Assembly: GCA_029339195.1 (NCBI GenBank)
Contig: JAPTJF010000086.1
Span: 63,743 to 127,742 of the forward strand
From: Micractinium sp. NFX-FRZ
Taxonomy: Eukaryota; Chlorophyta; Trebouxiophyceae; Chlorellales; Chlorellaceae
DNA length: 64,000 nt
Reading direction: 5' to 3'
The position numbers and the translations under genes are program-made. The notes beneath the pieces were generated by a model. That model was not told the origin of the DNA and made no database searches. It worked only from the letters and a program-made list of their open reading frames with translations. This document shows positions 12,413-60,400 of the stretch, in pieces. Numbering within the stretch: position 1 is the first letter of the stretch; each line of letters begins with the position of its first letter.

Positions 12413-15400
12413 TCATGCCGCGTCCGGCTGCTTGCGAGCAAACACGACGTACCTGCGGCAAGGCGGGGGTGGCAGGGGGAGGGCAGCGCAGCAGCAGGGG
12501 CAGGTCAGATCGTAAGAGACTGAGGCAGGGTGAGGGATGAGGGGATACCCACTGGGGGCCATGGTGTGGTGCCATGCTGTGCCCACAAAACCACCCATCT
12601 AGTCGCACAATGTGTCAGTGTATGTCATCTGTCTGTGCATGTCATCCGATGCGGGCACTCCACCTGGGACACCGGGCCGCGCCAATATGCGGCACACATT
12701 GGAAGCCGGCACCCGCCCCGCACTGCACAGCTGGTCACTGGAGGTGCCCCCATGCCACCTCAGCCTGTCACACCCCCAGAACTCCCTTGCCCGCCCCGGG
12801 CGGCTGGCCACACAGGTCACGCACATGGGGTCGCCGCCGCCGCCCAGCAGGCCCTTCTTGGGGCTGATGTCCTTGGCCTGGGGCGGGGTGAAGCCGCCGG
12901 GCACCGAGTAGTGGAAGTAGGAGCCTGCAGCAGCAGCAGCAGCAGCAGCAGCCCATGGAGCATATGTCCGTCTGCTTCTGCCAGTGTTCCCCCTCCCCTT
13001 GAGTGGGTGGGGTTTGTGTTCCCCTTGCCACCTGCCCCTCCCTTGCCGTCCCCCCCGGCTCACCCACAATATAGATGTGGTCCAGGTCGCCTGCAGGGGC
13101 AGACGAGGTGGCCAGGGTCGGGTGTGATTCGTGTGGTTTGCGTGAGGATGGCAGCATGGGTTGGCGGGGCGGCAGCATGGAGGCGGCAGCAGCGCACGCG
13201 TGGAGGAACAACACACATGTGGGTGGCACGAGCATGGAGGCAGCAGCGCAAGCAAGGCGGGGTGGGAGGGACGCTGCGGTGGCAAAGGTCAGGCGGGGCC
13301 TGGCCAGGAGTGGGGCTGAGGAAGGCATCGGCTGCCAGCTGCTGGCCACGCAAGCAGGCCTGCCAGCGGAGGCCCACCTGTCCATTGGCTGCACAGCATG
13401 GCACACCAGTACACAGCACAGCACACACAGCATGCAGGGGCACAGCACAAGCACAGCACGCGCACACGCAGCATGCAGGGGCACAGCGCACGCAGCATAG
13501 CGCAGCACAAGATTGCACCACACGCCGCGTGTCCAGGATCACCTGTGGAGGTCCACATCGCGATGGCTGCACAGCATGGCGCAGCATGGGATGCGGGGGG
13601 AGCAAAGGTGAGCACAACATGCTCCCCAGGCCGGCATTGCAGGGAGCCAACAGCCCTTGGCGGCTGCTGGCGCACGCTTGCAGGGGTGCGTGTGCCCTGC
13701 TGGCACCCGCGCCCCTCTAGGCACATCCCCCTTTGTGAACAACCACAGCATGGCACAGCACAGCATGGCACAGCACAGCACGGCATGAAGCTTGCAATCC
13801 ATGGGAAGCTGGGCAGCTGGACAGGGCGTGGACAACCCTTCAAGCCTGACATCTCTGGCCAACCTCCAAGCCTCGTTGTGGACAACTGGCTTTTCAGCCG
13901 AGGCATTCAAATGCAGGGAGGCGAGTGGGCACTCACCCTTTGTGGGGAAGCAGCGGTTGGAGAAGGACATGACCGCCATGCCGCCGGGCTTGAGGCAGCG
14001 GTGCATCTCTTTGAAGACCTCAATCGGGCGGGTCAGGTAATCAACGCTCACTGCACGTAACACGTTTTGGGGCAGGGCAAAGTGGTGGTCGATGATATGT
14101 TTTTCTCGATAGCAAAGGAGGGCGGGAGGGTGCACGAGATTTTGTGCAGCCTACGGCCCGACTCATCGCAGCACGCCTGCCAACGCGCGTGTGCTGACAG
14201 GCAGCGCATCACAGCACACATCCAGCCTGTGGACAGCACGCACCCCCCCAGGCACGGACTTCCACCTGCATTGGTGATGACGTCAAAAGAGTTGTCCTCG
14301 TAGGGGAGCGTGGGGTCCTCATTCAAATCCCGCACAGCAAACTCGGTCAGCTGACGGTTGCGTGCCAGCTCAGCCTCGTTCATGCCCAGGCCTGCATGCA
14401 TGGAACAGGAGTGGAAACACACAACATGAATGCATGGGGACAGGCATCAGCAGGGTGACGAGCCGTGCATGCCAGGCACAGGCAGGCGCAGCGTGTGTGA
14501 GTGGCGCACGACACGTTTGCACCCGCGGCATCAGCGGAGCACTCTGCCCCCACGACGTGAACGTTTTGTGGCGGCAAGTGATGTGCGGTCGTACCCTTGC
14601 CCGGTGGGCGTATGCGGCGTGCGCAGTCCACCCTGCCAGCAGTGCATTCTTCACCCAACACCTGCCCCAACCTGTACGCCCTCACCCGCCACCCTGCCAG
14701 CGGTGGCCCCCTCTGCTTAGTGGGCAACCCCAATCTCAGCACCTCACCTGCCACCCTGCCAGCTGTGTACCCCTCTGGGTAGTGGCTGATCCAGGAGCTG
14801 CAGATGTCCAGCAGGGCGGCGTCCTGGGAGCCGCTGGCTGGAAAGTTCTCGGCATAGAACCTGGGCGGTAGGGGAGGGAGGCAGGGCGTGAAGGGTGGGA
14901 GTGGGGCGGTGGGCAAGGCAGGGGCGGTGGGCAGGTTGTAAAGGCAGAACTGCCATGGCGTTTGGTTGATGAGAGGGGAAAGGCTAGCACCATAGGAGGG
15001 GAGGAGGAGGGACGGGAGGCCCACGTGAGGGCACAGCGTGGGAGGGAGGAGGTGGAGGAGACTGGAGGAGGGAGGAGGGCGAGGGGAGCGGATGCAAGCC
15101 CACAGGGAACAGGTGCAGAGAACGGGCGAGCATCGACAGCGGGCAGCGGCCGATCTCTCCGGCCCTGAGAGATTGCGTCGTGCTTGGCCGCCGGCTGGCC
15201 CTGGCTGGCCGGCCCGGCAGTGATGCGTCACTCACTGCGTGAGCGCCTTGATGGCGCCGTCGTCGATGTGCGTCACAAAGCGCGGCTGCTCGTAAAAGAT
15301 GGTGTCACTGGTCTCATCATACCTGCGTCATTGGTCCAAGGAGGAGGGCGGGGTGTGGCACCAAGGCGGCTGGCAGGTTGAGGCAGGGCGGGGCAGCTTC

Positions 15401-16229: not shown

Positions 16230-18001
16230 ATGTCCCGAGGGCGGACGGGCATCATCAAAGCCCTCAAGGAGGTGCGTCAAGGGGCGCTCACGCTTCGCCG
16301 ACCCCCCCGCTGCTGCCTTCTGCCCCCGCCTCGCCACCGCTGCCGCCACACGCCGCCTCTGCCCACACCCGCTTCCTCTCTGCCCTACGCAGGTGTTCCG
16401 CGAGGTCAAGTTCTTTGGTGATGCGGAGATTGCGACGCTGAAGAAGAACCTGGAGTCTCACAAGCTGCAGCTGGAGCAGCTCAAGGCGAGGCGGGCAGAG
16501 CAGGCGCGGCGCGAGGAGCAGCTGGTGGGTGGGTGCAGGGTCCTCGCTGCGGTGTGTCCGCACGTGCTGGGACTGGATCGGGTCACTTGGTCGGTGCACA
16601 GAACAGCTGCAGTGATTTGTAGCTCTTACTATGCAGCATGGGAGGGCTGGACTGGGGTGAGTGATGAGAAGAGGACTGCGCAGCAGCTGGTGCCTGTGGG
16701 AGGGCGGCTGGTGGGCGTGGGCAGGCGTGGGGCGAGCTAGGGAGTCCTGCAGGTGGTGGGTGGCTGCTGGACGGCGGCACGTGGGCAGGACATCTTTCTA
16801 CCACAGGTGCCCACTCCTTCTCGCTGCTGAGGCCTGCCCCAAGCGCTCCCAGAGACCCGCAAGGCGGCAGAGGCGCTGGGAGGAAGTGCTGCCTGCCAGC
16901 CAGCCAGCCTACCGGACAGCCTGCCAGCCTGCTTGCTTGCCTGCCTGCCTGCCTGCCTGCCAGCCAGCCTGCCTGCCTGCCAGCCTGCCTGCCTGCCTAT
17001 CACATTCAGCCGCATTCTCCGCATGTGTTGTCACCCGCAGGCTCTGCTTGAGATGCGCAAGGCCGTGGAGCAGCTGCAGAACATGCAGGCGATGCTGGAG
17101 GAGCAGGACCAGCGGGTGAGCGGGGGGATGGAAGGGGGCGTGCCAGCTGGCGTGGGAGGGTGCCCAAGAGTGGGCAGAGGACACAGTGGGCGGCTTGCAG
17201 GGTTGTGCTGGCACCGGTGGCAGGGAGGGGCAGGCAGCTGGTGCGAGGAGGGTGGGCGGGCAGCAGTGGCAGGGTGGGAGGGACTGGCGGCTGGGGCAGG
17301 GGGGATGGTGGGGGAGCACTGGATGAAGTGGAGGCGGTTGTTCACGCGTTCAGGCAGCTCCCCGTTCACCTGTTGACGGGCAGCAATTGGCGTTAGTTAT
17401 CTGACTTTGTTACATGTGGATGAGCGCACAGTACACCATCCTGCTGCCCACCAAGTGCAGATGGCGGCTACGGTTGAGGAGCTGGGCCGGCCCCAATACC
17501 CACAACACCAATATTGTCTCCAAATTCGTCTTTGTTTTCCCCCTCTTCCGCGCAGATGGAGGCGGTGGTTGAGGAGCTGGGCCAGCGGGCGATGGCGCAG
17601 CAGGAGCGGGACATGATGGCGCGCGCCATGGGCGTGCTCGAGAACGTGAAAATGGAGGTGGGCCTGGGTTGTGGTTCCCGTGCAGCTCGGTTGTGTGGGC
17701 GGGTGGGGGAAGGGGCCAGAGCACAGCGTGCCTAGCGTGCATTACGTGAGCATGGCTCCACCGCCAGCCTGGCCTCCGCTTTCTGGGTCCCCTCCCTATG
17801 CGCTGCCGCCCCTGTCCACTCAATCATTCAACTTGATGTCTTGATCTGCAACAGGAGTTGGTGACGACGTCTGACGAGGCGCAGCTGCAGAAGGAGCTGG
17901 ATCGCCTTCAAGCTGAGCTGCAGGCGGTGGGCAAGGGGGGCGGGGCGCCGCCGGCGCCACCCGGGCGCCCGCAGAAGCCGGCGGGGCGCAAGCGGCGATG
18001 A
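16230..18001 (+). CDS. Small coiled-coil protein
   Basis: A 5-exon model gives 165 aa: 16230-16271, 16393-16524, 17041-17115, 17556-17657, 17855-18001. All introns are phase 0. The product starts MSRGRTGIIKALKEVFREVK and is then almost entirely charged heptad-like helix (for example ATLKKNLESHKLQLEQLK, ALLEMRKAVEQLQNMQAMLE, QLQKELDRLQAEL), ending in a Gly/Pro-rich basic tail, GRKRR. It has no signal peptide or membrane segment. I cannot assign a family; a cytoskeletal or nuclear adaptor role is possible but not shown. The second coiled-coil gene starts 513 nt downstream on the same strand. The in-frame TGA and the new ATG favour two genes, but one transcript with a longer splice form is not excluded. 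Confidence 0.7.
16918..16999 (+). repeat. CCTG microsatellite
   Basis: Imperfect CCTG/CCAG units lie in intron 2 of coiled-coil gene 1, close to the acceptor at 17040. Confidence 0.85.
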
Positions 18002-18513: not shown

Positions 18514-19829
18514 ATGGCGCTCCTTGGCAGGCGCAGGCTTCTCCGCCGCCTGTTTGCAGCGTTGGAGAAGGTGGCCGGCAACGTAGGGTTAATCAGAGAA
18601 GCGGGCAAGGAGATGCGCACGTTTACGCACGAGGTGCGGGGGAAGCGCATTGTGGCGTGACCAGGCAGCGAAAACGGATCGCGCATGTGCAGTGTCACAG
18701 ACTGCCCGCCGCCGCCGCCTCTGCCGCCGCCGCCAGTGCCAGTGCTCAACAGCGGCTCATTTGCATGCCCGGACTCGTTCCGCAGGCCTCCCCCATGGTA
18801 TTGCTTCACATGCATGTGTCGTAACACCCACTGACTCTGCCATTACCTGTTGCTGCCACTGCGGCTTGCCTTTTGCCTGCCGGCCCACCGCAGGAGGGGA
18901 CGCTGGTGCGGCAGCTCAGCGAGAGCCGGCAGCGCATGGTGGACCTGCAGGTGAGGCAGGCAGCCCCTGTGCATGTGTTACCTCGTTGAACGTGTTAAGC
19001 CTGTGTTGGAATTCCTTTGGGAGCTTTGCCAAAATTTCACCTGAGGGCAGTGTGCTGGGCGGAACCTGCGGTTGGGTGCCATCCTGAACTGTTGGATGAA
19101 GCCGTTTTCTGTGCGGGCATGGCGGGGCTTGTGGTGGGTGGCAGGGTGCTGGGCAGCGCATGGTGGACCCGCAGGTTGGCAGCCAGCCTGGCGCCGCCAG
19201 CTGGGCAGCTAAAGCAGAGGGAAAACCCACATGTCGGGCTGCCACATGCCTGCTCCACTCTGCCTGCCTGCCAGCCCGCCCGCTGATCTCCCACCACCCT
19301 GCCTGGGCTGCTCAAGCACGTGTAGCAAGTCGCAGATGCTTCTTTACAAACGGGAAGTACGCACTTTACGGCCCTCCCTTCCCTGCAGCTCATGCGCGCG
19401 GAGCAGGCGCGGCAGATGCACACCACAGTGGCCCGGCAGGTGCTCGAGGCCATTGAGCTAGTCGAGCGGCGGCAGCATGCGCTGCTGGCACGCCAAGCGG
19501 CACTGGTGCACCTGTGCCAGCAGCTCAGGCAGGAGCGAGATGAGCTGGCAGCTGCGGCGGGGCTGACAGACAGCGGCGGCGGCGGCGGCGGCAGTGATGG
19601 CGGTGATCTGGCGGCGGGCGAGGGGCTGCAGCCAGCAGAGCAGCAGCAGCAGGGCGCGGCATGGCCGGAGACTGCAGCGCAAGGGCAGCAGCAGGGGAGC
19701 AGCTGGCAGCGCAGTGGACCGCAGCGTGCGCAGCAGCACGAAACGAGCTACCAGCCGACAGGGGCGGCTGCAGGGCACCGCTTGCGCGGCGGCGGCGGGA
19801 GCAGCAGCAGCAGCGGCGGCGGCGGCTAG
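18514..19829 (+). CDS. Coiled-coil protein with Gly/Gln-rich tail
   Basis: A 3-exon model gives 205 aa: 18514-18633, 18894-18950, 19389-19829, all phase 0. The N-terminus MALLGRRRLLRRLFAALEKV is basic and amphipathic. The middle (EGTLVRQLSESRQRMVDLQ, then LMRAEQARQMHTTVARQVLE and on through LRQERDEL) is a long coiled coil. The last 90 residues are Gln/Gly/Ser-rich low complexity. No catalytic motif is seen and the family is not recognised. It follows coiled-coil gene 1 in the same orientation, which may mean related function or shared ancestry, although the two sequences do not align obviously. Confidence 0.65.
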
Positions 19830-20228: not shown

Positions 20229-23200
20229 TCACTGCCCCTGCTGCTGCGCCCGCTGCCGCGCCTGCTGCGCCTGCTGCCGCGCCTGCCTCCGCTGCTGCAG
20301 CTCCTCCTGATACCGGCCTGCCAGTGGGAAGAAGTAGCTCTCCACAAAGTCCACCTCCTCGCCCTTGAAGTGGTGCTGCATCACACACACACAGGCAGGG
20401 AGCAGGGAGACGCACGGGTGAAGCAGGTTGGGGGCGAGCCAGAGGGACAAAGAGCTTTGCACGCAGTCCACCTCCTCGCCCTTGAAGTGGTGCTGCTGAC
20501 ATGATACACAAAATTTGGGGACACCGAGTGTGCAGGGGTGCATTGGCTGAAAGGAAGCCAACAACACAGCAGTGGCAAGGGGGCAAGGTGCAGAGGCCAC
20601 GTCTTGTGCTGCACCCCACAGGATGGGCAGTCACGGACCCGCCCCCGCCCGCAAGTTCATGGCGAATTTCTTCCCACCGGTAGAACTGTAGAAAGCACGC
20701 TCCTAACCTTGAAAGCACGCTGAGTTACCGATCAGGGCACCTTGCCGGTGTATGTGGGCGCCCAGTTGTGAATGGACACAGCCCCTGCTCCCCACCACTC
20801 GCACTCTAGAAAGCAAGATGATCGGTCCACCAGCCCACCTCGCCGGCGTACATGGGCAGGTCCCCCTCCCTCCCCACTCAACACCCCAACTCTTGCTTGT
20901 GCATTTTTGAGGGCTGGGGTGGGGGAAGCAGGGCAATCTTTGGTGTTGCGACCCACCTTGCCGGTGTATGTGGGAGCCCAGTTGTAGATGAGCAGGTCCT
21001 CCTCCTCTGCCTGGTCAGCGGGGGCCTGGAAGTTGCGGCGCGCCTCCGACACGAAGAAGTTGGCCACCTCCTGCAAGTGAAGGGGCGGGGGTGAGAGCAA
21101 GAGGGGCAGGCGGGGGCAAATGAAGGGTCGGCAGCGTGGGGTGCAGGCCCATGGAACAGCCCCTCCCCTGTGCCAGCCTGCTCCGACTTCATTAGGTCGG
21201 CAGCATGGGGTGCAGCCGCCGGTGGCACAGCCCCTCCCCTGTGCCAGCCTGTGTTGACTGCAATACCTCTCTGCCTCATATCAAAGGCCCACCTGCGTGA
21301 TTTCAATCGCGTCTGGGTGGTGCGGGATGTCCTTGTCGGGTGTCCACTCAAACGCGTTCTTCTCGGGGTGCCTGCGGCCAGGCAGGACAGGAAGGATCAT
21401 GTGTGTGGGGTGGGGTAAGGAGAGAGGTGGGGCGGAAGGGGGTGTGGGGTGGGGCAAGGAGAGAGGTGGGGCGCAAGGTAGGGTGCCTGCAGCCGGGCAG
21501 GCAAGGAGGGAAGTGGGGGTGCGGTGGGGGCAAAGGTGGGGTGGGTGGAAGGTGGGGTGGCTGCAGCTAGATGCAAGGAAGTGATGCAGGGTGGGGTGGC
21601 AGGTGGGTGGAGTGCAGGCACGGCACGGCATGCCATGCCATGGCATGCGGCAGCGCCGCTTAGGCTTGGCTGGTGCCCTACCATACAGCGGCGGCACACC
21701 TCTGCCCGCCTGCCCGCCGCGCGCCCCGACATGCACCCGCTCAATGCCACGTCAGCACGCCACCTCAGCGCTGCCAGCTCACCACTGCGTGCCGTAGATG
21801 GGGTAATCTTTGGCCTCAAAGGTGCTCACATACACCTGGCCCACTCGGTCCACGCTGAGGGACAGCACATCAAAGAGGTCGCGCACACGGGGGTTCTCTG
21901 CCACAGCCGTCCAGGCCAGGCCTGCAGAGGGGGCACAGCCAGCAGGGTGTGTGGGGTTCATTAAGAGACAGCACATTTCAGAGGTTGCGCACACAGCGGT
22001 TCTCTGACACAGCTGTCCAGACCAGGCCTGCGGCAGGGCAGGGTGAGGGCGGGGTGCGGAAGCGGGCAGGCAGGGCAGGCAGCGAGCGACGATGGGCACG
22101 ATTTGTGCTGCGATAGGCCCGCCCCTCGGAGTGGCCACTTTGTGTACACATCAGTTACTCGACAGACTGCAACTGAATGATACTAACACGCACCACGCTC
22201 ACCGTGCGCGTGGTTCTCCATGGCGTAGGGCCGCGTGCGCAGGTGCTCCACCACCTGGGGCGGCAGCGCGCGGAAGAAGCGGCTCTTCTCGGCAGAGTCT
22301 GCATTAAAGGGGGGGAGGGAGGGGAGCCGCCTGCCTCATGCGGGGGAATACCAAACAGCTGGCGGCGGGGGAGGGGAGCTGCCTGCCTCATGCTGCCCTG
22401 CTGTGCTGGCAAAGTGGGTGGGAGATACACCCCAAACCGCCCACCAGCCAGGTCGACGTTTCAACGACGTGAGAGCTGCCCGTTAAGATCAGCAGCCGGG
22501 GAAGGCACCCTATGCAGCACCCACAGCAATCCAGAACAGGGCACACACACCCTTACAACTTGCCCGTCAGGAAGAGGGGGGAGGGCAGGTTCTCGGCGTC
22601 GAAATCCGACAGGATGCTGTGGTTGCGGGACGCCACGATGGCCAGCGTCTCAAAACCCAGGCACACGCCGTACACCTGGGGATGTACAGGGGAGGGCATT
22701 GTAAAAGCACAGTAGGAGTCTTTTGCCGGGCGAAGGGAGAGGGACGGTGCAACTGCACAGGGGATGGCAAGTGTGGGGCAAGCGGAGGAGAAGCAAGCCA
22801 CCGGTCGAAACTGGTGTGTCGCACACGCGTGTGACCGGGCAGGCGGATGGCTTGGAGGGCGGGGGCAGGAGGGGAGGTACTCATGGGCGGGCGAGGGGCG
22901 GGAGACAGCAGCGGGGATCCCCAGCACATGGCTCAGCCAACCATCCACCCGCCCACCCACACTCACCGGGAAGTAGTTCCCCTTGTCGTTTGCCTCGATT
23001 GCCAGGTCGTACAGCTGGCTGACGGTGTCGTAAAAGGGCTCCCCCGGGCGCAGGTTCTGGGCGCCGCCTGGGATGAGGATGCCGTTGACGGCCTGCAGGC
23101 GGTGGCCGAAGGAACGAGTGTGTAAATTCGTTCTGAACGCAAGGGAGGGCTCCCGCGTGGCGCAGGTTCTGATGGGAGTGAAGGGAAGAGGATGCCGTGG

Positions 23201-23915
23201 GCGGTGGGGCGGGGAAGCCCGCACTGACGCACCTTGGGAGCACCGCGCCACCTCTTCCCTGCTCACGTCGCACCCACCTCAGCCCCCCCTGCAACATCAC
23301 TACATTGCAGCAAAAAGTTGGCACACCTTGAAGCGGTGCGCCACCTCCTCCTTGCTCACGCCTCACCCACCTCAGCCGCCCCCTGCACCACCACTATACG
23401 TCACACACGCTTGCCTTGAAGCGGCGCGCCACCTCCTCCCTGCTCATGTCGCACAAGATGGGCACCGCACGCGCCCCCGCGCTTTCCACCAGCTTCACAT
23501 ACGAGCTAGCAATGTAGGAGTGCCCCTTGGGCGCGGGGTCGCCCACCTGCGGGGGATGGGGGAGCCGGATGAGCAAGGAGGGGTGAGGTGGTCGCCAGAG
23601 CAGCGAGGCGCTTGCGGGGCGAATGCGGCGTGCGGCGTGGTGGCCGCTGGCACATGCACCCGCCGCCGCTCTGCTGGCGCACTGCCAGGTCACCTGGGAG
23701 ACGACGCCGATTAGGGGGCGCAGGTTGAGGTCGTGATCCCTCTTGCCCAGGAGCGCCAGGCTGGCAGAGGTGCCGTCTGCAGCTGCAAGTGCTGCCGCCT
23801 CCAGGCCCGCTGGCAGCGGCCGCACCGCCGCCGCCGGTGCCGCCAGCACTAGTAGCGCGGCTAGCAGCAGGGCTGCAGCCGCGCTGGAGCGCTCCGGAGG
23901 AGGTGCTGGCAGCAT
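20229..23915 (-). CDS. GGH: Gamma-glutamyl hydrolase (folate polyglutamate hydrolase)
   Basis: A 9-exon model gives 388 aa: 23915-23694, 23546-23415, 23092-22967, 22675-22564, 22298-22203, 21921-21783, 21371-21293, 21070-20957, 20375-20229. The chosen Met opens a hydrophobic signal (LLLAALLVLAAPAAA), as expected for a vacuolar or secreted enzyme; an upstream in-frame ATG at 24053 would bury it. Family blocks are RPLIGVVSQ, GHSYIASSYVKLVESAGARA, GILIPGGAQNL, the nucleophile VYGVCLGFETLA (Cys), GTQWHPEKNAFEW (catalytic His), and EVANFFVSEARRN. It removes gamma-linked glutamates from folates (class C26 glutamine-amidotransferase fold). Introns 2 and 4 appear to use GC donors; the intron 4 choice restores PLFLT-DSAEKSRFF, which matches the family. 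The C-terminus ends in a Gln/Ala/Arg repeat. It is divergent from NAMPT. Confidence 0.92.
21127..21250. repeat. Two-copy tandem repeat in GGH intron 7
   Basis: Units at about 21127-21180 and 21196-21250 share GGTCGGCAGC, GGGGTGCAG and the run ACAGCCCCTCCCCTGTGCCA, offset by about 70 bp. Confidence 0.8.
21408..21500. repeat. Tandem repeat in GGH intron 6
   Basis: Units of about 43 bp containing AAGGAGAGAGGTGGGGCG at 21417 and 21456 repeat in tandem, followed by a diverged copy of the exon 7 acceptor. Confidence 0.7.
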
Positions 23916-24162: not shown

Positions 24163-27100
24163 ATGGGTGCAGCACACCCAGCATTTGCCCCAGCGCTGCC
24201 TCTAGCGCAGTGTCTCGGCGCGTCAGGGTTTACGCGCCCTGCAGTTCGTGCCAGGCGCCTGCGGCAGCTCGCAGCAACGCCCGGAGCAGCAGAAAGCAGC
24301 ACTACATCGATGAAAAGTGGCAATGCCGCTGCACCTGCGGCTGCTGGCTCTCCCGCCGTAGCTGCCGCCGCTCCACCGCTCCTCAACCACTGGCTGCCCA
24401 TCTCCGTGCTGACCGACTCCTACAAGACCACACACTTCCTGCAGTACCCGCCCAGCAGCAAAATGGTGGCGGTGAGCCAGAGCATCCATGCCCTGCGCCG
24501 CTGCATTCACTTGCACAGCGCACTCACCGCAGCCGCCCCGCCGCCTGACTGTTTTGGACCTACGTCCGTCAGCCGGCCTGCCCACTAATAACTATCTAGT
24601 ATTCCTGCCCCTGCAGTACGGAGAGTTCCGACAGGGCTACGATGGGGATGCAACTGACACCCGGCTGGTGTTTTACGGGCTGCGCTACGTGCTGGAAAAC
24701 TATGTGGTTCGGCGCTGGACGCTGCAGGTGGGTGCTGCTGCATGGTGGGTGCTGGGTGAAACTGTGTTTTATAATGGGCGCGCAGCACGACGAGTGCTGG
24801 CGGTTATTGGGTGGCTCGGCGCTTTATGCTGCAGGTGGGTGCTGGCTGCTGGGCACTCGTCAATCAGGGCGGTGCACGATGCGAAGCTGGCGGGTCGTTT
24901 CTGTGCCCTTGATCTCAGCTGCACTTACGCCGTGGCCAACAAGAGTACACTGCCCGCAAACACCTTGGCTCGTGCCATTGCGCGCCCCCCCACCCCTGTC
25001 TCACATGCCCCATGTCCTTCACCAAACCACCCCTCCTCCTTCTGTCTGCCACACAGGATGTTGAGATGGCCGACCGCTTCTATGCCAGCCACCGCGCCCC
25101 TGGCCACACAGCCTTTCCCTACCCCCGTGACCTCTTCCTCAAGTTCATCTCGGAGAACGACGGTAGGGTGTGCATGTGAGAATGCGGGGGCAGAGATTGT
25201 AATGCTGGGGCGGGGCCAGAGCGCGGTCAGCAAGGCCGGGGGGGCACTGCTGCAAGGGGCGAAAGCAGAGGTTGTGTGAGGCGGGGTGGTTAGGGGTGTT
25301 CTGATGGGGCCAGGCCACCTGCTGCCAGGATCGGTGCAGCCCTGGTCAGCTGTGTAGCCCGCTGAGGATGTGCTGGGCCTATGGTGTGCTGTGCTGCGCT
25401 GCACTGTGCTGCTCCCAGTCCCCAGGTCTGCTCACCGGTACAAAGCGCTCACTGCCCCATGCTCGCCCTCCCCGTGTCCCTCCCTGTCCCGCCCCCTCCC
25501 CCCCTCCCCCTGGCAGGCTACATGCCCGTGCGGCTGCAGGCGCTGCCGGAGGGCAGCTGCGTGCACGCTCACGTCCCCGTCTTCCAGCTCACAGCGGAGG
25601 GCCCCTACGCCCCGCTCTGCACCTACCTGGAGACACTGCTCACGCAAGTGTGGTACCCAACGACAGTGGCAACACTGAGGTGATGGGGCATGATGGGGGG
25701 GCGTGCAGGCGGGCCTTGAGCGGGCAGTGGACCTGCCTCTTCCGCCGTAACTTCTCGCAAGCGTACCAACACTCTGGGTCAAAGAAGCGTCAAGTCTGCA
25801 ATGGTTCGATGGATGAAGCGATTGTTCGAGGAAGGAAGGCGCTGTGCCTGCTGACCCTCGCACCATGCTGCACCCCCGCAGCCGGCGCGTCAAGGAGCTG
25901 GTGGCCGCAGCATTTGACCAAAGCGTGGAGGGCGGGCGCGCCAGCCCGCTGCTCAACAGCCGGCTGCACGACTTTGGGTTCAGGTGAGGCCTTCACGGGG
26001 GATCAGGGTGTTGGGACAGCAGGCTAGCTCCCACCAGAGACACGTGCTGAGCTGCAGCAGGTAGCGGCATGTGCCTGGCGTTGCCTGACATCAGACTGCA
26101 CGGCTTTGGGCCCAGCTGTGGCGACAGCAACATCCACCTCACTAAGCTCTCATTCAATCGGCGGCACAGCAATGTGCATGCTTTCCACGGCAGGTTGCAT
26201 GCTGTAGCTGCTTGGTAGCTGCGCCGCCAGCGCCTGACTGCAACAGTGCGCCGCCTCTCACCGGTGCCGCTCACGGCCCACCGCACCCTGCTGCAGGGGG
26301 TGCACGTGCGTGGAGCAGAGCGTGCTGGGCGGGGTGGCACACCTGCTGAACTTTGATGGCACAGGTGGGGCATTGGGCGGGCAGAGGGGCGGGTGGGCAT
26401 GCTGCGCATTCGCCGGCAAGCCTGACACCCTTAGAGAGTCAGGCCAGGTTCCAGCCCTTGGGAGGCAGGCTGGCGCCCGTGCTCCTGTGCTGCACCTGGC
26501 CCGCATGTGCAGCAGCCGCAGCGCTGGCAAAAGGGTGCTGCGTCGTGAGCACTGGCACACGCAGACACCCTCGTGCCATCCGGCTCAGCCGTGCGCACGC
26601 CTCCCCTCCCTCAGCTGCACCCCGCTGCGCCGCCCCTGCTGCTCCTGCTGCAGACACGCTGTCTGCTGCCTACTATGCCCAGTTTGCCCTCAACGGCGGG
26701 CGCCCAGTGGGCGAGAGCATCCCCGCCACGGAGCACAGCGTGATGACCAGCTGGCCCTCTGGTGAGCCCGGGGGAGGAGCAAGGTGTGTTGAGGTGTTTT
26801 CCTCTTGAACCAACTCACCGTCAGCGTGCCTAGCCAGGTGCCGTTCCATGCAGCCGCCCGGCTGGCACACACGCCAGCAGCGCACTTTGTGAGCCGGCCC
26901 CGCATGCGCCCTTCCCGACACCCATGGGTGCCTCATTGTGCCTCATTGCGCCTCGTTGTGCCTCGTTGTGCTGGTCCTGAACTGCCCGCCTAGCCGTGCC
27001 ACTTCTACTCCCTGCTGCTGTGCTCTTTTTGCAACCACGCTCAACCAAAGTTTGCTTGAGTAGCTGTGCTGCTGTTCCAATGCATCAGCTGACGGCCCCT

Positions 27101-30100
27101 GTTCTCCCCAGTGCTCCTCATGCGTGGCCCCTGCAGCTGCCCTCACGTGAGCCGCGCTGTGCTCCTTGCACGCTGCCCCCTGCAGAGCGTGAGGCCATCA
27201 GCAACATGATTCATCACTTTGGCGAGGGCGTGTTTGCAACGGTGATGGACAGTTATGACTACGAAAGGGTGAGTGCCGGGGCTGCGAGAAGCATAGCGTT
27301 GGGTGTGGGAGGGCAGGGCGGCACTGGGCATGCGGGGGCTGCCACTTGGCATAGGCAGGTGTGGCTGCCAGATGGCGGGCCGCCATGTATCTGTGTGTGC
27401 ATATAATGTGTGCATGCAATTTGCGTGCATGCGATTGTGCACGCATTTATGTGTGCGTGTGTCGGCGTGTGCATGTTTGATTGCCACAAATGGGTTCCCA
27501 TGGGAGGCGGGCAGTTGGTTTCTTGTGAAGGGCAGGACGGCACAGCAGGCAGGCGGCATGTCTACGGCCCGTTCTTCCCCACTTCACCCCATCCTTGCCC
27601 CTCCCCGCCCTACCCTGCCAGGCGCTCAACGAGGTGGTGCCTGCGGTGGTGGCAGAGAAGAACGAGCGTGGGGGCTTCTGGGTGCTGCGCCCAGACTCGG
27701 GTGCGGCTTGGAATTAGGGGTGCTGAGGGCTGGAGCCGGCGCCTTGGGCAGACGCAGACTGCGGGGCGGGGGCTGGGGGATGGGGGATGGGAAGAATTTT
27801 AGGGCGACGGATCACTTGCCGGCCTCGGCTTGGCACCCCAGGGGTGCCTGTCGACATTGGGGCTCTGGACTCCCCTGCGATTCCCGCCACTCCCCTGCCC
27901 TGCCCCATTGCACCCGCACCCCCTGTGCCTCATGGGCTACCCCTCCTCACCCCCCCCCCCCCCGGCTCCTCCTGCATCCCCCCGCCCCTCCTCCCCACAC
28001 CCCAACCATGCCACAGGCGACCCCACGGAGGCCGTGCTGGCAGCGCTCGAGGCGGCGGAGCGTGCCTTTGGGGCAGATGTGAACGGCAGGGGGTACCGGG
28101 TGCCACGTGGCGTGGGGGTCATCCAGGTGGGGAGGGGACGGAGGGGGGAAATTAGTGCTGCAGTTGTTGACATGGGGATGGCCAGAAACCCACACTGGAG
28201 GGTGGTGGAGAGGGGATGCGGTTCCCAGGCTCCAGTGCGTGCGCACCCGTGTTTTGCCCGCGCTCTCCCTGCCCACCACCTGCGCTGCCCGAGGTGCCGG
28301 CCTTGATTTCCAGCACTATCCATCGGCGGCCATTCCATGCATCCTGTCAGGAATGCTTTTTCACCTACGTGTGTGCCTGTTCGACTTCCTCCCCGGCAGG
28401 GCGACGGCATCGGCTACCACAACATCCAGCGCATACTGCAGGCCGTGATGGGGCGGGGGTACAGCGCAGAGGTGCGCCTGGTGTACTGCCTAACGTACTG
28501 CTGCGGTGCATGCTTCACTGCGGGGACTGGCATACGTGCACAGCAGGAGCGTGGGGGCATCAATCGGCGCAGAGTACAGGCCACTTCCTCCAGTGCGGGC
28601 AGACAAGGGAACACAAGTAATTGATACTTTGGTGTGTGACTGCTGGCAGTGGGCGCAGTGCGAGCGGGGCCCTGCTGCGCACGCCCCGTCCTTTGTTACC
28701 GTGCTTCCATCCACCCCTCTGCCTGCCTGCCCGCCTGCCTGCCCGTCTGCCTGCCCGCCCGCAGTCGGTGGCGTTTGGCATGGGCGGCGGCCTGCTCCAG
28801 CGCCTCAACCGCGACACCCTCAGCCTGGCAACAAAGCTGTGCCACATTGTGTACCAGGATGGCACAGGTGCGCACGCGCCTTCCTTGGTCTGGGCAGGTG
28901 CTAGCATTGGTGTGTGCGGTGCGTATCCTGGCAGCAAGGCTGTGTCACGCCCTCTGCCGGGGTGAGATGCAACTGCTGCATCGCCTTCCTGCCTGCTTCC
29001 TGCGTCCTGCCGCCGAACGGGTGGTTGGCCCAACCCTAGGGCTCCGGCCTGCTGTTGGCAGCCTAGTACAAGCTGTGCCTTCTCAAGAAGCCCCCTTCTC
29101 TCCTTTCCTCCTGCAGCGGTGGGGGCCATGCAAACACGCATGCACTGCCTTACCTCCCACTACCGCCGCAAATCAAAACAGCTCACTCCTCATATATTTT
29201 TGTCACCTCCCCCCTGCAGCCGTGGACACCATGAAAGCTCCCAAGACGGGGCCCGAGAAGGCCTCGCTGCCCGGCGTGCTGGCCGTCAAACGGGTGAGCG
29301 GCGCAGATGCCTGCATGCATGAACACTGGGCGTGCAGCCAGCGGCTGCTGTCACGGAGCAGCACAAGCCGCCTCGCAATGGCTGCCGGGTGGCATCAGCA
29401 CAGCAGCAGCCTCCCTCTGCAGCCTCCTCCCCCAGCCCATCCCCACCCCTGTCATCCCGGCAACCCACACGCCACGCTGTGTTCCCCCTCATCCGCACGT
29501 GGCAGGTTGACGGGGTGCCCACCGCCTTCCCAGCTGACGAGGTGGCACCCGGGGACGACCTGCTGCAAGTGGTGTACGACTGTGGGCCGGTGGCGGGCCT
29601 GCAGGTGGGCTGCACCTTTGCATTTACTTGTTTTGCTTTTTGTTACGAGGGGGTAAGCTTCTCATCAAGTCGGCATTTTTCCAGCTAGCTGAGTGGCCTG
29701 CTCGGTTGCAAATGGTTTGCTGGTGCAGGCCAGCAGGTGGGCAGCTGCTGCGTGTGTGCAGCCTGCGTCAGCCGGTGCCTCTCTCTTGCCGCGCACACAG
29801 CACACATATGTCGCAGCTCCTTTGTGTGCCCATGTGGGCCAAGAGGAAGTGCGGCAATGGCACCACCCCGCCAACCTCTGAGCTGGCCTCCATGCTCCGT
29901 TTCACATGGCCCTGTGCCAATACCGACGGCCACGCCAACGCCGGCCCCCTCTGCCTGCCTGCCTGCAGTGGGAGAGCTTTGACGAGCTGCGAGCCCGGGT
30001 GGAGCGGGAGTGGGCCGCGCTGCCGCCTGCTGCTGACGTGGTGGCGCCGGCGCTGCGGGAGAAGCGGGCAGCGGTGGCGGCACGGCTGGGGGTGCAGTGG

Positions 30101-42635: not shown

Positions 42636-44319
42636 ATGGCAGCAGCAGCGGCGCGGCTGTGCCTCCGCCAGGGGCGCGCACAGGCGGGCCTGGCCCTGCG
42701 GCACCGCCCATGTGCTGCGGTGGCCCCGCCGCTCGTCAGGGGGCGCACGGCTGCCGTGCGGGCACACGCCTCTGCCGCAGCAGAGCAGCCAGAGTACCTG
42801 GTCCTGGATTACGACTACACCCGTGAGTCAAACTGATTGCAGGCGTGTGTTCCGGCATGCTCAATACTGCCGCCTGGAAGGAGCAATGTGATGTTTAAAT
42901 GAGTCAGTCAAGTCACTCGGTTGATCAGTTGTTCAGTTCACTTCCCAAGTCAAGTGGGCGCCGTCCGTTTGGTCGCTGCAACGGCTGTCGTAAGCTCACC
43001 AAATCAATGGCGTGCAGACCACGATGCCGAGCTGCTGGCCAAGCGGGCGCCCTACCTGGAAGAGCACCTGCGCAAGTGCCGGCAGAAGGTGAGGCGTGGG
43101 GGGCGCATCTCAGCACCCGCTTGACCGTCACCTCCCTGCCCCTGCCCCTCGCTGTGCAGGCAGCCGAGGGGAAGCTGCCGCCGTGCGGGGGCGCAACTTG
43201 GTGCCCGCCTGATATTCGCCCCCCTGCCCCTGGCTGTGCAGGCAGCCGAGGGGAAACTGCTGCTGTGGGGGGCGGTGGGCACTCCCATCACCTCAGGTGC
43301 CCGCTCATTGATCAGTACATCTGAGGCAACAAAGGCAGCGAGATGCAGTTGGGATGCGCAGGGAAGTGTAACCGTTGCGCCTGGTCCCAGAGCTTGCGCT
43401 TATGATGCCTTGCAAGCGCAACGCTGCATGCCGCTGGCGGCACTTTGCACTGCGTGCCGCTGGGCTGGCGCGTCCGTGCGTGCCGCCCACCTCAGGGCAG
43501 ACCCAAATAAGGACCGCAGATCTAGGTCCTGACTGCAAAGGCTTCCTTGGGAGCACAGCTGACTGATCCCAACCACACCCACACCCTCACCCCCTTTCCC
43601 AGGCATGCTGATCTGGCGCAATGCTGACGCAGCAGAGGTGGCCGAGTTTGTGAAGCAAGACCCGGTGAGCTGAGGTGGCATGCGTGCTGAGCTGGCAGGG
43701 GCGCTGACGTGGCAGGGGTAGGCCAAACTTCTGCCAAGGATGACCGCCACGCCCGCCTGCCCTGCCGCATCTTCGTGCCTCACCGCACAGCAAGGTGACC
43801 GCTCCCCTCCCCTCCCACCCACACGGCACTCTCGCACCCACTTGCAAGAGCAGTTTGTGACAAACGGACTGGTGCGCCATTGGTGAGCTCCAGCTTGAGT
43901 CTATCCCGTTCTACCCTGCCACTACCCAGCCGCCCTAGCAAGCGCCTGCCGGTCAGCCAGCCAGCCGCCAAGCCTCCCGGCTAGGCTGCGTTGGCCACCC
44001 GGCCACCCAGTCGCCAACCGCCGTGATGCAGTGCAGCCGGCTGCCTGCCCATTCGTGCAAGGGCAGGCGCAGCACACACGTTCAGCACGGTTGTATTGAA
44101 GGCGGCCCTGGCCGCCTGCCTTGCCAGCGTTGGCAAGGCACGCTCCTGGGCATTGCCGCGCACGCTGCAGGGCATGGGTGCGCGCACTGGGGGCCCCCAG
44201 CCCTCACGCCCCTGCCTGTCTAACACACGCCCCTGCCTGTCAAACATGTGCAGCCCCCTTGTCCCCCCACCCACAGGACTGTCCGCCCCTTCCACGTACA
44301 CGTCATCGACCAAGAGTAG
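42636..44319 (+). CDS. YciI-like (YCII-related) protein, plastid-targeted
   Basis: A 6-exon model gives 148 aa: 42636-42822, 43018-43088, 43242-43296, 43603-43664, 43854-43882, 44277-44319. All phases close. The first 45 or so residues (MAAAAARLCLRQGRAQAGLA and on) are a typical plastid transit peptide. The mature part has the YCII order: YLVLDYDYTHHDAELLAKRA, RAPYLEEHLRK, GKLLLWGAVGTP, GMLIWRNADAAEVAEFV, KQDPFVTNGLVRHWTVRPF. The conserved His and Asp of the fold are visible (HHD near the start, QDP). YciI proteins are small ferredoxin-like-fold proteins of uncertain, possibly lyase-like function. Intron 2 contains a near-perfect decoy of the exon 3 acceptor. Confidence 0.87.
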
Positions 44320-44504: not shown

Positions 44505-44509
44505 TGTAA
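44505..44509 (+). promoter_or_regulatory. TGTAA poly(A) signal of the YciI-like gene
   Basis: It lies 185 nt after the stop codon. Confidence 0.5.
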
Positions 44510-52244: not shown

Positions 52245-55200
52245 TCACAGCCAGTGCCTCCTCAGCGCCTCCTCAATCCAAGTCCTGCAAATCCAGGGCG
52301 CCGAAGCATCGAGCTCGGGCCGTGTGCGTGCATCCAGGAGCCCTGCTCTCCGCTAGAGCACCCCCCGCCCACAAAAGTGGCGCGCCCCAGCATGCATGTC
52401 GCCTCCCCACCCAAAGCCGCGCACCTGTAGTCTGCGACGGAAGTGTAGTACCCAAGCTGAGTTGCGTTCGCGCCACAGCCGTCACCCATGGATGGGATAC
52501 CGTAGGACACAACGCCCCCTGGGTCAAGCAGAGGCAGCAGCGGCTGGTAAGTGTACGTGGGCCGTGGCAGTTGGTGGCCGCGCACGAATATTGCACCGCA
52601 CAACATTAATGCAGCGGCCAGCCTTGTGGCTCGCACCCTGGATGCTGCAGACAGCCAAGCAGGCGGCCTTCCCCAGCGCTGCCTGCCAGGCTGCCAGGCT
52701 GCGAGCACTGCCTGCCAGAAAGCACACTCGGTGTTGTAGTTATAGTCGCACTACAAAGGGTGAGCTATACTTCTGTCATACAGCCTCACCTGGGTGTCTA
52801 CCCTCCCATCGATTGCCAGGGGCCCTCCGCTGTCGCCGCTGCACGAGTCGGCGCCGCCCGAGCCGCCGGCGCAGAGCTGGCCAGCCGGGTACCTGCCCTC
52901 CCGCCTCGTGCACTCTGCCCGGCCCACAATGGGCAGGGTGGTGAAGCTGCAGGGGGGGATGGATAGGCAGGAGCCAACGGCAAGGCAGGGGGGAGAGGAA
53001 TAGGGAGGCAGTTGAGGCGGCGGGGTGATGACAGGGCGTGATGAAGCATGACCTGGCAAGGTGGCGCATGGCTTGGCATGCATCATTGGCATGGCCATAT
53101 GGCATGCCTCACCTCCTGCTCCCTCTTCACCGCCCTCGCTGCGCTCCTGCACAGCGCACCTGCCTGCAGTCATCCGTGCCCCCGGCCCGCCCACCTTCCC
53201 CCTGTTGCTCGCCCTCCCTCTCACAGCAGCACGTCGCTGGCGCTCCCAGACTCAGTCACACCCCAGCCCGCGGTGAAGACGCGCTGCCCATGCCGCAGCT
53301 TCTGCACGGGTTGGCAGCACAGTGTCGTATGGTGGCACTGTTCAGGGCGGGAGCTGTGGAGGCACAGAGACTTCCCTGGCATCAGTACCAGTAGTGGGAG
53401 GCTGGCACCTAAAAGGGGTGGCGGCACAGGCGGGCACTGGCAGTGCACCACCCGTCTGCCCACTGGGCAGGCCGCAGCTACTGCACGGGGTGGCAGCATA
53501 GTCTGTTAGGGTGGCACCATCCAGGGAGGGAACTGTGGAGGCACTGGCAATGCACGACTGGGTGCACCAGTGCTTGTGCTGCTGCAGCTTCTGCAGGGTG
53601 GCATTGTGCACCAGAGCTGGGGCGAGCATTATAAGCAAACAAACGCGGTCGTGGCTGCGCCCGGACTCGGGGTTGCAACTCATCCCCACACTGCTAGGCA
53701 GCACTGGGACCGCCCCGGTACTGCCGCCCCGGTGCTGCCGCCCCGGCCTGCGCACCAGGGACGGGGCTGCCAGACTAATGGGGCGGAGCAACGTGGTGTT
53801 GACGGGCCTGCAGCGCAGGCGGGCACGAGCGTAGGTTGGCCAGTGGCTGGTGGCCCGGCCTACGGGTTGCCGGCACGGTGCCGGTGTGCCAGCTGAGACA
53901 TGTGCACGCGGGGTGCACAAGTGCCTGGCCCTGGGTTTGGTGCCCCTCCTGCTGCCCTGTGTGCAGCATCCTGCGCGGTGCCAAGGCCCCACTTGCTCAC
54001 CCCACCCACCGACTTGTGCTGAGTCACCCGCTAGTGGCGGACTTGGGTTGTGCCAAGTCCTCTGCACTCTCTTCCCCACTTACGCACCCACCAACCACAG
54101 CCCGCCACCACCTGTCCAGCTGGACCATGCTGCTCGATACTGTTGCATTCCCAGCAAGTGTTGCATTCGAGCTCTTCGAATGCCCCCCGCCCACACACAC
54201 ACCTGTCCAGCTGGATCAGGGCGATGTCATGCTCGTTTCTTTCAGAATCAATGTCGTAGCCTGGGTGGGCAATCATGCGCTGCAGGGAGTACGGTTGCAT
54301 TGGGTGGGCGGGTGAATGTTTGATTGATTGAGCGGTGGGAGCAGCAGGGCAGGGTGTATTGTTGCAACGGTGGGACCAACAAAGGCAGGGCAGCATGTGT
54401 TGCTGCAGCCTGTGGGAGCAGCAAGGCACCATGTGTTGCTGCAGCCAGTGGGAGCAGCAAGCAGCCGAGTTTAAGGGGTGGGGGTGGGCGTGGGGGTGGG
54501 GGGAGGGCAGTGTGCCAGATGTAGGCAGGTATGCCCACAAGCGCCTCAGCTAAAAGAAGGTGCATCATGCATGCAGCGAGGTCAAGGGAGGCCGCTGTGA
54601 CAGAGAATAATGGGGCACTGCAAGAGGGAGGGGGCAGGCAGTGCCAGCAGACATTGGGCCAGGACACACCAGACTGCAGGTGGCAGCAAGGCATGTGCTG
54701 GCACCACACATTGGGGGCACCGCATCAGCTTCGGCCGTGCCGGCATGCAGCGGCGTGCTGCTCGCAGCGCGCCAGGCTGCTGGGTGGTTGACAAGGCAGC
54801 GGACGGAGGTGTGGCATGCATGCAGTGCGCAGCAGCACATGGGATTGGGCATGCATGCAGTAACATGCAGTACCTCAAGCAGGTGCCGTGCCTCTCCATC
54901 TCCCGGAGATCGGCCCATCAGTGCACGCGTGCAGGCCTGAGTGAAATGCGGGCCTCCCTGGCAGGAGGGGAGCCGGAGTGCATACGCAAGAGGCACACCG
55001 TGCTGTGCAGACAAAAAAAAAAACAGTCGGAACTACAAAGGAACACACAGCACACACAAGCGCCCGGTCTCACCACTGGGAAGCGGGTCTCTTGGTAGCG
55101 GATTGACCTGCGGGTGGTGTCAAAGCGCAGATCGATCCCCGCCATCTGCAGCCAGACAGGGAGCGGGGCGGGCAGAGCGAGGCAGGCTGTTGGGAGCACG

Positions 55201-57484: not shown

Positions 57485-60400
57485 CTATAGGCGGTACTTC
57501 CTCAGGACATCGTCGATCCACTTCCTGCAAGGGGCCGCGGGTGGGGCAGGTGCGGCGGGGTGGGCGGGGCCCGCAGGGCGAAAAGGGGCCGGCAGCAATC
57601 TGTTCTTGCCGCACATGGTGCATGGACCTACCAATAACAGGGTGCACAGCACAGGCACGGGAACAGGGGCACTTTGTCTGCTCCCCGCCCAACTGCCCTC
57701 CGCTGCCGGCCCCGCCCCGCAGCACCGCTGCTGCTCCCTCCCGCATGCTTTTGTGTACACCCATTAAGCAAGTACAAGGCTTACCTATAGAACATGACGG
57801 ACGTGTAATATCCTGTCACTTTCGGGTCAGACCCGCAGCCAGTAGGGCCGTACGATACGACACCGACCTGCAGAAAGAAGGGGGGGACATGTCTAGTCTA
57901 GTCTAGTCCTTACAGCTTGGATAAGCCGGCCGGCAGGGGTGAATCACGTTGCTGCGGCGCGCACACGCAGGCCGCGTCTAATCTGTGCACACCCCTAGCA
58001 GGCTATGCACACCGTGGTCGGTGCCAGACCATCTAGCAGCCATGGCTCCTGGGGCTGCGCCACTCCCTAAACCGCCCCGCCCCACCCTATCCCACCCCGC
58101 CCCGCCCACAAGCAGCCCTGACCTGGACGTCGGTTTTTGCATCGATCTGCAGCGGCCCGCCGCTGTCGCCGCTGCACGAGTCGGCGCCACCCGAGCCGCC
58201 GGCGCAGATGTGGCCCGCGGGGTACCCCCCCTGCCGCCTCGTGCACTCCTTGCGGTCCACAAAGGGCAGGTAGGTGTAGCTGCAGGGCAGGAGGGCCGGT
58301 TGTGTTGTTAGTAGACAGTTATGAGGGGCAGGGGTGGCCGCGGGGCAGCCCCCCCGCCGTGTCTGGTGCGCATTGCCCCCCCACAGTAGGCAGGCAGGCA
58401 GGTGGGTGCACGTAGGCACCGGGGAGGGACGCAAGGGGCTTGGAGGGTGGGGGGGCGCGTCCCTATGCACGTGTGCGTGAGTGTGTGAGTGTGCATGCAT
58501 GCTGACCAAAGAGGTCATGAGAATGGCACACGGCCCGGCCGGCTCCCCCAAGCTGCGCCGCGCCGTGCCGTGCCCTCTCCACCCCTCCTCTTCTCTCCGC
58601 TTCGAACCCATCTGCCCTCCCACACACCCAGCCAGCCAACCACTCACAGCAGCGCTTCGCTGCCTCCGGGCGCCGTCTCAGTCATACCCCATCCTGAGGT
58701 CATGAGAGTCTGTCCCTGCCTCAGCTTCTGCGGGGCACAGAAGTGAACAAGCACATGCATAGGGTGCATCAGCGCCTGCCCGTGCCTCGGCTTCTGCAGC
58801 ACACCGTGCCTCAGCTTGTGCAGCATAACGTCGCTCAGCTTCTGCACCGCACTTTGCCTCAGCTCCTGCAGCACACCCCACATGTGCGTGGGGCGGGGAA
58901 CAAGCGGGGCCCGCCCGATGCACAGCAGCAACAGAGCATCGGGAGCAGCAGCAGCGGCTGCGGCAGCAGACGAGACAGCCAAGCAGAGCATGCCACACTG
59001 GACACCTTGCACACTGGCGCGGCAGCATGCAGCCCCCCACCCGCACAGCCCAATAGGCAGCCCTACACTCACAAAAGTGGCTGGGGCGAGCGCGATGGGC
59101 GGGAAGGCGGTCGTGTTCACCGGCCTGCAGCGGCGGCGGCAGGCGCAAGTGCAACGGTCCTCACACGCAGGCTGCTTTCAAAATGTGCAGCAAGCCTGCC
59201 ATGCTCTGGGTGCAGCAAGCCTGCCATGCTCTGGGTGCAGCTGTGGGTGCAGCTCTGTATGACCCTTTCTGCTGGAGGCTCTCCGGCCTGTCCATGGCGC
59301 AGCAGTGCTTCCGCCCCACCCTGCCCACCTGTCCAGCTGGATGAGGGCCATGCCCTGCTGCCTTGGTACTGTTGCATTCCCAGCAAGTGTTGCATTCCCA
59401 GCAAGTGTTGCATTCAAGCTGCATGAGTGCGACCCCTCCTCACCTGTCCAGCTGGATCAGGGCAATGTCATCAGCGTAACCGTCATTCTCATACCCAGGG
59501 TGCACGATCAGGCGCTGCATGGCGGGTGTGGCAAGAGGGGCGGGCAGGCAGGTGGGTGGGCAGGCAGGCGGGGTGTGCATGCTCAGGCAGGTAGGCGGGT
59601 GGCCCCTCCCGGAAGGACAGCTCTTCCGCCAGCACTGCTGCCCACGCTGTGTTGGAGGCGCCGTCAGGCTTCACATGTAATGCTGCCAGCGCTGATGAGG
59701 TGCTGTGGAGCGCACGCACAGCTGGGGTGCATACGTCGCGGTTGCTGCGCTGCAGGCGCCCCGTACCAATTATATTAATTTATAACCATATATATATATA
59801 TATGGCCCGCACTCACCACTGGGAAGCGGGTTTCGCGGTAGTGGAAGAATGCCAGGGTGTCGTCCCACCGCAGGTGGATGCCGCCCACCTGCATGATACA
59901 GATTCAAGAGAGGAGGTTGGAAAGGTCATGAGCAGGGCTAGCTGTTGACCTTTTTGCAGATCCAGTGTATGGTATGAACGGCTTGCCAGGCGCAGGTGGG
60001 ATGCCGCCGACCTGCGGGGAGCACAAAATGGGGGAGAGGCTTGTCAAGGGGTAGGGCAGGGCGGGCCACATGATAGAATAGTTCCTTGTCTTGCAACTGA
60101 GGCTGGCGGGATGCCAGAATTGGACACAGGAGGCAAGCCGAGCGCCAGGCAGGCAGGCGGGCAGGCAGGCAGGCAGGCAAGCACGCGCTGGAGCGGGGCA
60201 GGGCAGGCGGAGGAGCAGGCAGACAGGTGGCGGGCCCGCCCAGCACCCACCTTGACCTTGTCGGGCCACCGGTAGCCGTCGCCGTTGATCAGGCAGTGCG
60301 CCGCCTGGGGATGGCACAGCGGGAGGGGCACGGGGGCCGGGGCTTGAGATGCAATGAACCCTAACTCAGGCGGTGAGGCACACCGGCAGCACGCTGTGCG

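Follow-up and report, generated by a model that had tools for sequence, protein, structure and literature searches.

Exon-Edge Copies Within the Window

The window examined here, a 64,000-nt stretch of the genome of the green alga Micractinium sp. NFX-FRZ (contig JAPTJF010000086.1, positions 63,743 to 127,742), carries genes whose introns contain a diverged second copy of one of their own exon edges, namely a splice site together with adjoining exon sequence. These copies are termed echoes below. The matching edge of the exon is called functional, the distance between the two copies is the offset and the sequence separating them is the spacer. The genes concerned encode a methyltransferase, two coiled-coil proteins, GGH, NAMPT, ELP4, a PHT4-like transporter, a protein named YciI in an earlier reading of the DNA (the sequence-only reading) and two paralogous trypsin-like proteases. 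A Pfam search that covered three whole proteins and the first part of a fourth supports the methyltransferase (PF08241), PHT4-like transporter (PF07690) and ELP4 (PF05625, PAXNEB) genes and gave no match for coiled-coil gene 1; the PF05625 protein is the one that we take to be ELP4. All 16 pairs listed outside the protease genes by the sequence-only reading align at the places it gave, with 77-100% identity over 17-78 nt, and the echoes of the two protease genes were recovered as well. Fifteen of the 16 pairs lie beyond chance, since only 0-3 of 400 composite intron stretches score as high. Since the source introns were part of the pool for these null stretches, echoes themselves may account for some of the 1-3 null matches. 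The sixteenth, NAMPT3, is weak, being equaled by 8 of the 400 null stretches.

The methyltransferase gene (reverse strand) has a donor echo at 14680..14725 (functional 14742-14787; 44 nt, 86% identical, offset 62). Both coiled-coil genes lie on the forward strand: gene 1 has an acceptor echo at 17457..17491 (functional 17552-17586; 35 nt, 86%; 0/400 null stretches) and gene 2 a donor echo at 19152..19188 (functional 18928-18965). In the GGH gene (reverse strand), the acceptor echo GGH1 (20438..20496, functional 20320-20379) and the donor echo GGH2 (20738..20773, functional 20954-20989) occupy the same intron, 20376-20956, where they are nested between the used sites. GGH3 is an acceptor echo chiefly of the intron side (21480..21529, functional 21366-21415), and GGH4, an acceptor echo with an in-frame stop (21964..22038, functional 21858-21931), was in part wrongly called exon by the gene finder. 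The donor echo GGH5 (23325..23366, functional 23411-23454) has an extra copy at 23244-23273, giving a 93-nt array. The corresponding exon end (23408-23454) possibly uses a GC donor (CAAG/GCAAGC), and its echo has a GT donor (CAAG/GTGTGC). The gene finder took a GT two codons beyond the GC site; homologues, which are without those two residues, fit the GC site.

The NAMPT gene (forward strand) contains two donor echoes, NAMPT1 (24810..24849, functional 24704-24741) and NAMPT2 (26088..26122, functional 25956-25991; 77-81% identical), and the weak acceptor echo NAMPT3 (29103..29133, functional 29206-29236). In the ELP4 gene (reverse strand), the acceptor echo ELP4a (32682..32769, functional copy 32578-32676) is a tandem unit that enters the intron, with about 100 aligned columns at 78% identity; the test for homology with the remainder of the intron gives p 0.02. 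ELP4b (33351..33384) matches the exon stretch 33245-33278, and its status as an edge is uncertain because the gene model ends the exon at 33318, 40 nt past the pair. The ELP4 donor echo (35373..35435, functional 35471-35540), partly called exon by the gene finder, belongs to a 94-nt array of about three units at 35217-35531. The transporter gene has an acceptor echo at 37987..38043 on the reverse strand (functional 37864-37922), with a spacer homologous to the remainder of the intron (p 0.02), and the YciI gene has one at 43139..43193 on the forward strand (functional 43221-43274; 55 nt, 91%). For ELP4a, YciI and the transporter, the similarity, judged by eye, flanks the splice site on both sides.

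Both protease genes lie on the reverse strand. Gene 1 has an acceptor echo, chiefly of the intron side, at 53468..53544 (functional 53289-53365) and a donor echo at 54109..54127 (functional 54200-54218); gene 2 has a donor echo at 59319..59352 (functional 59434-59467). At 54100-54230 and 59320-59470 the two paralogues share the donor echo along with 31 nt of spacer without a mismatch, although the remainder of these introns is unalignable and identity in the alignable exon stretches is about 74-84%. By eye, the shared block is open in frame in both genes, and it may be a conserved element, the product of a short conversion or an alternative exon. Elsewhere in the window there are long poly-C tracts at 32386-32407 and 27950-27963, in intergenic region and intron.

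Extent of the Echoes Beyond the Window

The wider analysis covered 264 kb, consisting of the window and 20 sampled 10-kb stretches, one at a fixed place on each of contigs 1-20, picked without regard to the echoes; the parent genome comprises 66 Mb in 838 contigs. Exon and intron edges are those predicted by a purpose-written gene finder that was self-trained on the same 264 kb. It returned 632 exons and 574 introns no longer than 900 nt, the introns averaging 254 nt; the 29,049 predicted codons include 2 internal stops. Its faults are that it fuses adjacent genes on the same strand, takes some echoes for exons and overlooks some genes, among them YciI, whose echo therefore stands outside all counts. 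Ungapped repeats were scanned at offsets of 30-329 with a score of at least 16, and four far-offset bands of the same width served as controls. Low-complexity segments were removed before counting, overlapping segments at nearby offsets were merged and introns above 900 nt were excluded. Because an initial low-complexity filter had disfavored intron sequence, a relaxed one was used for the count of 204 repeats given below.

The observation of intronic exon-edge copies is confirmed and extends beyond the window. The strict scan yielded 79 rows, 40 donor and 39 acceptor, so both kinds of edge are affected, as the sequence-only reading had noted. Once copies with more than 10% of overlap with predicted exons had been set aside, 65 rows remained, corresponding to 54 of 1148 splice edges (16/280 in the window, 38/868 in the sample), 51 of the 574 introns and 14 of the 20 sampled stretches. 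With the relaxed filter, 64 echo edges occur in 555 introns of 60-900 nt. At score 18 the window and the sample have nearly the same repeat density, 0.42 and 0.38 per kb. Direct near repeats number 204 (85 exon-intron, 59 intron-intron, 53 exon-exon and 7 others), against 1, 1, 0 and 2 in the four controls. Inverted repeats in the 264 kb, counted more crudely by a seed-based method, show no near excess (4 near, 5 far), and templated insertion in both orientations is thus not supported.

The echo copies have a median exon part of 26.5 nt and a median intron part of 6 nt. The clustering of offsets reported for the window holds in the larger set, with 45 of 71 exon-intron pairs at 80-139 bp and a lesser group near 200. 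Many copies also keep their dinucleotide: AG is present in 29 of 33 acceptor copies and GT in 22 of 32 donor copies, while 5 of the 10 donor copies that lost GT have GC. At 9 of the 54 edges there are two or more copies, mostly with similar spacing (2 of the 9 belong to one array in sampled stretch L018), and 3 of the 51 echo introns carry both a donor and an acceptor echo. Echo introns have a median length of 356 nt versus 228 nt for introns without echo (p 2e-11), in keeping with the earlier suggestion that echoes could lengthen introns.

Usage of the Two Copies

Twelve homologous proteins, six each for GGH and NAMPT, were aligned to the two genes. The nearest named relatives come from Micractinium species and Chlorella vulgaris (80-89% identical). 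Closer still are two metagenome proteins, 93 and 94% identical to NAMPT and GGH, which possibly do not stem from one organism. In 8/8 cases the homologues match the functional side, and at GGH1 and GGH2 the nearest one is joined exactly across both functional sites. Where homologues touch an echo (GGH1, GGH2, GGH4; two of the twelve do), residues that match the functional side match a second time and less strongly. The echoes of these two genes are therefore not misplaced constitutive exons, an error that the sequence-only reading had itself named. Use of the outer site is thus supported by homologous proteins in GGH and NAMPT, and in the other genes the outer site is presumably the one in use.

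Origin of the Echoes

The echoes are probably relics of old, short tandem duplications that spanned a splice site. A duplication with a unit of usually 60-140 bp would happen to include a donor or an acceptor site, leaving the gene with two copies of exon end and splice site, of which the outer would remain in use and the inner would be spliced out. The spliced-out copy could then mutate freely. Its exon partner would be held by selection on the protein, so that an exon-intron pair should decay more slowly than an intron-intron pair produced by the same process inside introns. Because the exon member is under protein selection, the exon edge would be the last visible part of the unit. Such duplications may arise from the repair of breaks with overhangs, and most would be old, few new ones of this size having been fixed since. 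The sequence-only reading had likewise proposed local tandem duplication, tolerated because splicing removes the copy. That mechanism appears right in kind, without the preference for exon edges and the ongoing activity that were attached to it.

The spacers suggest a duplicated unit larger than the visible edge. Of 59 spacers compared at p<=0.07, 20 resemble the remaining sequence of the intron in which they lie, where about 4 are expected; at p<=0.05 the figure is 18 of 50. Some of these cases are multi-copy arrays. Tandem geometry is thus detectable in about one-third of cases. The earlier description of an echo as a splice site plus 20-60 nt of exon fits the visible core, and in that third the copied unit detectably continues into the intron.

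Exon-intron copies exceed intron-intron copies per available pair, an excess without which the sequence-only reading would have counted itself refuted, but the excess is weak, 1.4-fold (1.2-1.4 over five score limits), and simulated duplications blind to splice sites give class mixtures similar, although not identical, to that observed. The view that exon edges are a preferred target is consequently not supported. Repeat coverage does peak over the last 30 nt of the exon and the first 10 nt of the intron, with dips on either side. When a unit spans the boundary its exon copy necessarily abuts the copied splice site, and 70 of 87 exon-intron pairs agree with this (61 cross the boundary, 9 lie within 12 nt); the edge looks special for this reason and because the exon member is conserved. 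Offsets of exon-intron pairs have a mode near 110, and those of intron-intron pairs are mostly 20-120, a difference that is attributed informally to the room available for a boundary-spanning unit.

Age of the Duplications

That duplication is frequent today, as the wording of the sequence-only reading implies, is not supported. A constant birth of duplications should leave a large part of the copies young, with the whole unit readable, but young units of at least 46 nt are nearly missing, which suggests a process that is old rather than ongoing. A tandem-repeat scan found 28 arrays with units of at least 46 nt, none of them at 93% matches, and the 12 arrays at 93% that are not mainly exonic all have units of 13-25 nt. 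In the window, an intron of the protease region has young tandem repeats with 100% matches at 59185-59241 (25-nt unit) and 59370-59415 (18-nt unit); longer units elsewhere are old. The youngest-looking edge case of the sample is a 71-nt pair at 93% in L018, where (L018:7353-7771) about 55 nt of an exon start are duplicated 116 bp away, ahead of a 65-nt array with more copies of the edge. A 33-nt repeat array in a predicted exon (L004:5904-6107) includes a 121-nt exact repeat at 66 bp.

Whole-unit duplications placed without regard to splice sites were simulated in 360 settings, of which 314 were kept and 46 dropped for fewer than 15 detections. Steady-rate duplication followed by neutral decay is rejected: exponential ages fall 18 log-likelihood units below the best setting and predict that 40-76% of the most similar class extend into the intron, versus 0/19 observed. 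With ages set away from zero, the simulation comes near the observed class mixture, extension and homology; in five settings 27-53% of spacers are homologous, versus the 20/59 above. Coefficients of variation of age between 0.2 and 0.6 fit about equally and 0.8 is 5 units worse, so the data demand a shortage of young copies and not one exact date. Mean ages in well-fitting settings are 0.12-0.35 changes per site.

Similarity depends on the length of the exon part. Identity of at least 93% is found in 0/16 copies with at least 35 nt of exon versus 19/48 shorter ones (p 0.0015), and of three fitted settings one reproduces this drop clearly (0.04 versus 0.18), one partially (0.13 versus 0.28) and one barely (0.21 versus 0.25). 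In these models the few sharp, near-identical copies would mostly be lucky short ones, and the absence of intron extension among the most similar copies would result from age and sampling noise acting on short exon parts.

Several observations weigh against tandem duplication with neutral decay as a full account. None of the 19 copies with at least 93% identity extends 15 nt into the intron. In this most similar class the spacer is homologous to the intron in only 4/19, and the nearest 60 nt of intron flank match in 2/17, where a recent whole-unit duplication should match. Seventeen of the 87 exon-intron pairs do not reach the boundary, and the near-identical spacer end of the two protease paralogues is unpredicted by neutral decay. 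Each simulation setting was run once, the best lies 7 log-likelihood units below a perfect fit, and no setting matches every measure, the drop with exon length included; sharp, highly similar copies make up 19/85 of those observed, 26/145 in the best setting and 11/88 in the best at the narrowest ages. The scarcity of young copies likewise counts against it. Assembly collapse may have removed them, but the 121-nt exact repeat was resolved, which is one case only.

Residues retained in the echoes bear on their age. At GGH1 the echo, its exon and the 94% homologue all read HHF; in the 8 remaining homologues the second residue is K or R. A threonine of the GGH2 echo and an alanine of the GGH5 echo likewise recur only in the respective exon and in the 94% homologue. 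In addition, the GGH5 echo retains a lysine that 5/9 homologues have, among them the nearest, at a place where its exon now carries arginine. NAMPT2 and NAMPT3 are uninformative, GGH4 says little and NAMPT1 offers only a possible older residue. Judged by shared residues and not by formal dating, the simplest reading would be that the GGH1, GGH2 and GGH5 echoes postdate the split from the named Chlorella and Micractinium relatives and predate the latest change in their own lineage.

In three fitted settings, with about one duplication per simulated intron, 0.30, 0.22 and 0.09 edges were detected per intron, and the 0.115 observed would translate into roughly 0.4 to 1.3 duplications per intron. 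A tentative, and on balance doubtful, extension of these models is that a past episode of approximately 100-bp tandem duplication reached a large share of introns at this density and has since nearly stopped, the exon edges forming a fossil record that could be dated gene by gene.

Alternative Explanations

The sharpness of the echoes could be original instead of a product of decay, if a splice-linked process copied only the exon edge and the splice consensus into the intron. The coverage peak from 30 nt within the exon to 10 nt within the intron, the dip from +10 to +30, the 6-nt median intron part, the most similar copies that stop at the splice consensus and the residual misfit of the tandem model would all suit such a process. 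We nevertheless consider it improbable, given that one spacer in three is homologous to the rest of its intron, that only copies with short exon parts are both sharp and similar, that intron-intron copies occur at a similar rate and that any boundary-spanning pair abuts the boundary automatically. Selection on echoes as decoy or regulated splice sites, or their homogenization with the exon by gene conversion, would account for the frequent retention of AG and for the echo and near-identical spacer end of the protease paralogues. It is nevertheless improbable: exon and echo mismatch almost evenly at codon positions 1, 2 and 3 (0.116, 0.134 and 0.164), offsets show no preference modulo three (22, 21 and 22 for remainders 0, 1 and 2), GT is kept in only about two-thirds of donor copies, and the translations of the GGH4 and GGH5 echoes contain stops. 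No coding potential was found beyond the echo, with mean log-odds of -0.14 to -0.20 per nt in all frames compared with +0.15 in frame for true exons. Coding or alternative exons are rejected on these grounds, the flanks being non-coding on average. Young, long tandem units inside introns are missing too, and selection on echoes does not explain this.

Clustered offsets, and copies on either side of a spacer, would also be expected from an introner family or mobile element that makes a long target-site duplication, and short similarities link two pairs of spacers from different genes (26 nt at 88%, 37 nt at 81%). Apart from these two pairs, cross-gene matches among 63 spacers come down to the protease paralogues and one 15-nt word common to L015 and the L018 array. 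Moreover, none of the 3 spacers searched has a copy elsewhere in the genome beyond itself, its echo or its paralogue, very common words having been skipped. A mobile element is thus rejected for the spacers tested, there being no spacer family, and is highly unlikely in general. Artefact is equally hard to credit as an explanation, whether from matches arising by chance in introns rich in GC, from faulty gene models or from errors of assembly. The gene finder is indeed self-trained, works without RNA support and called some echoes exons. On the other hand, the far-offset and inverted controls are near zero, the GGH and NAMPT edges have the backing of homologous proteins, the divergence of many copies (10-25%) is not that of assembly duplications, and the assembly did resolve an exact 121-nt repeat.

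Relation to Known Systems and Meaning

Internal duplication and intron creation were reportedly treated by Gao and Lynch, and there is said to be work on paired nicks in plants. A literature search without subscription journals turned up no study surveying exon-edge copies across the genome of a green alga, which does not prove that none exists. Intron gain is described in which tandem genomic duplication of an AGGT segment within an exon makes a new intron (PMC3443670, PMC2891723). Common to both situations is a short tandem duplication touching splice sequence that splicing absorbs, with the protein unchanged. In contrast, here an existing intron is lengthened and bears a dead copy of its own splice edge. 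No new intron bounded by two copies of such a segment was found among the echoes, since the copy sits within an intron that is longer, with typically 60-140 nt separating it from the site in use. Short tandem duplications produced by repair of breaks with overhangs are described in human and mouse cells and suggested for plants (PMC8355091, whose reference 14 concerns rice insertions). They share with the echoes the direct orientation, the short units and the lack of an element family. They differ in being new mutations with short insertions (<100 bp), whereas the echoes appear to be old relics with units near 100 bp for which the repair route is presumed. Direct repeats near intron borders, with a mean of 11.4 bp, have been read as insertion footprints in which the 5' border pairs with the 3' border (PMC11782384). 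The echoes are also direct repeats at exon-intron borders, but each border pairs with a copy inside the intron and the exon part is longer. Introners resemble the echoes in the genome-wide scale of intron change (PMC9860276); the echoes differ in that no repeated element was found among the spacers searched.

For gene finders the echoes are a warning, several of them having been called exons here. For gene structure they offer a concrete and countable route of intron growth, and the conservation of one member of each pair gives a reason for the privileged look of exon edges. Each echo would be a neutrally evolving duplicate of conserved sequence, its ancestor known, and may thus act as a local clock and provide an estimate of neutral decay where introns are unalignable. 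If the shortage of young copies holds up, it would mean that the rate of a mutational process has shifted within a single lineage of algae.

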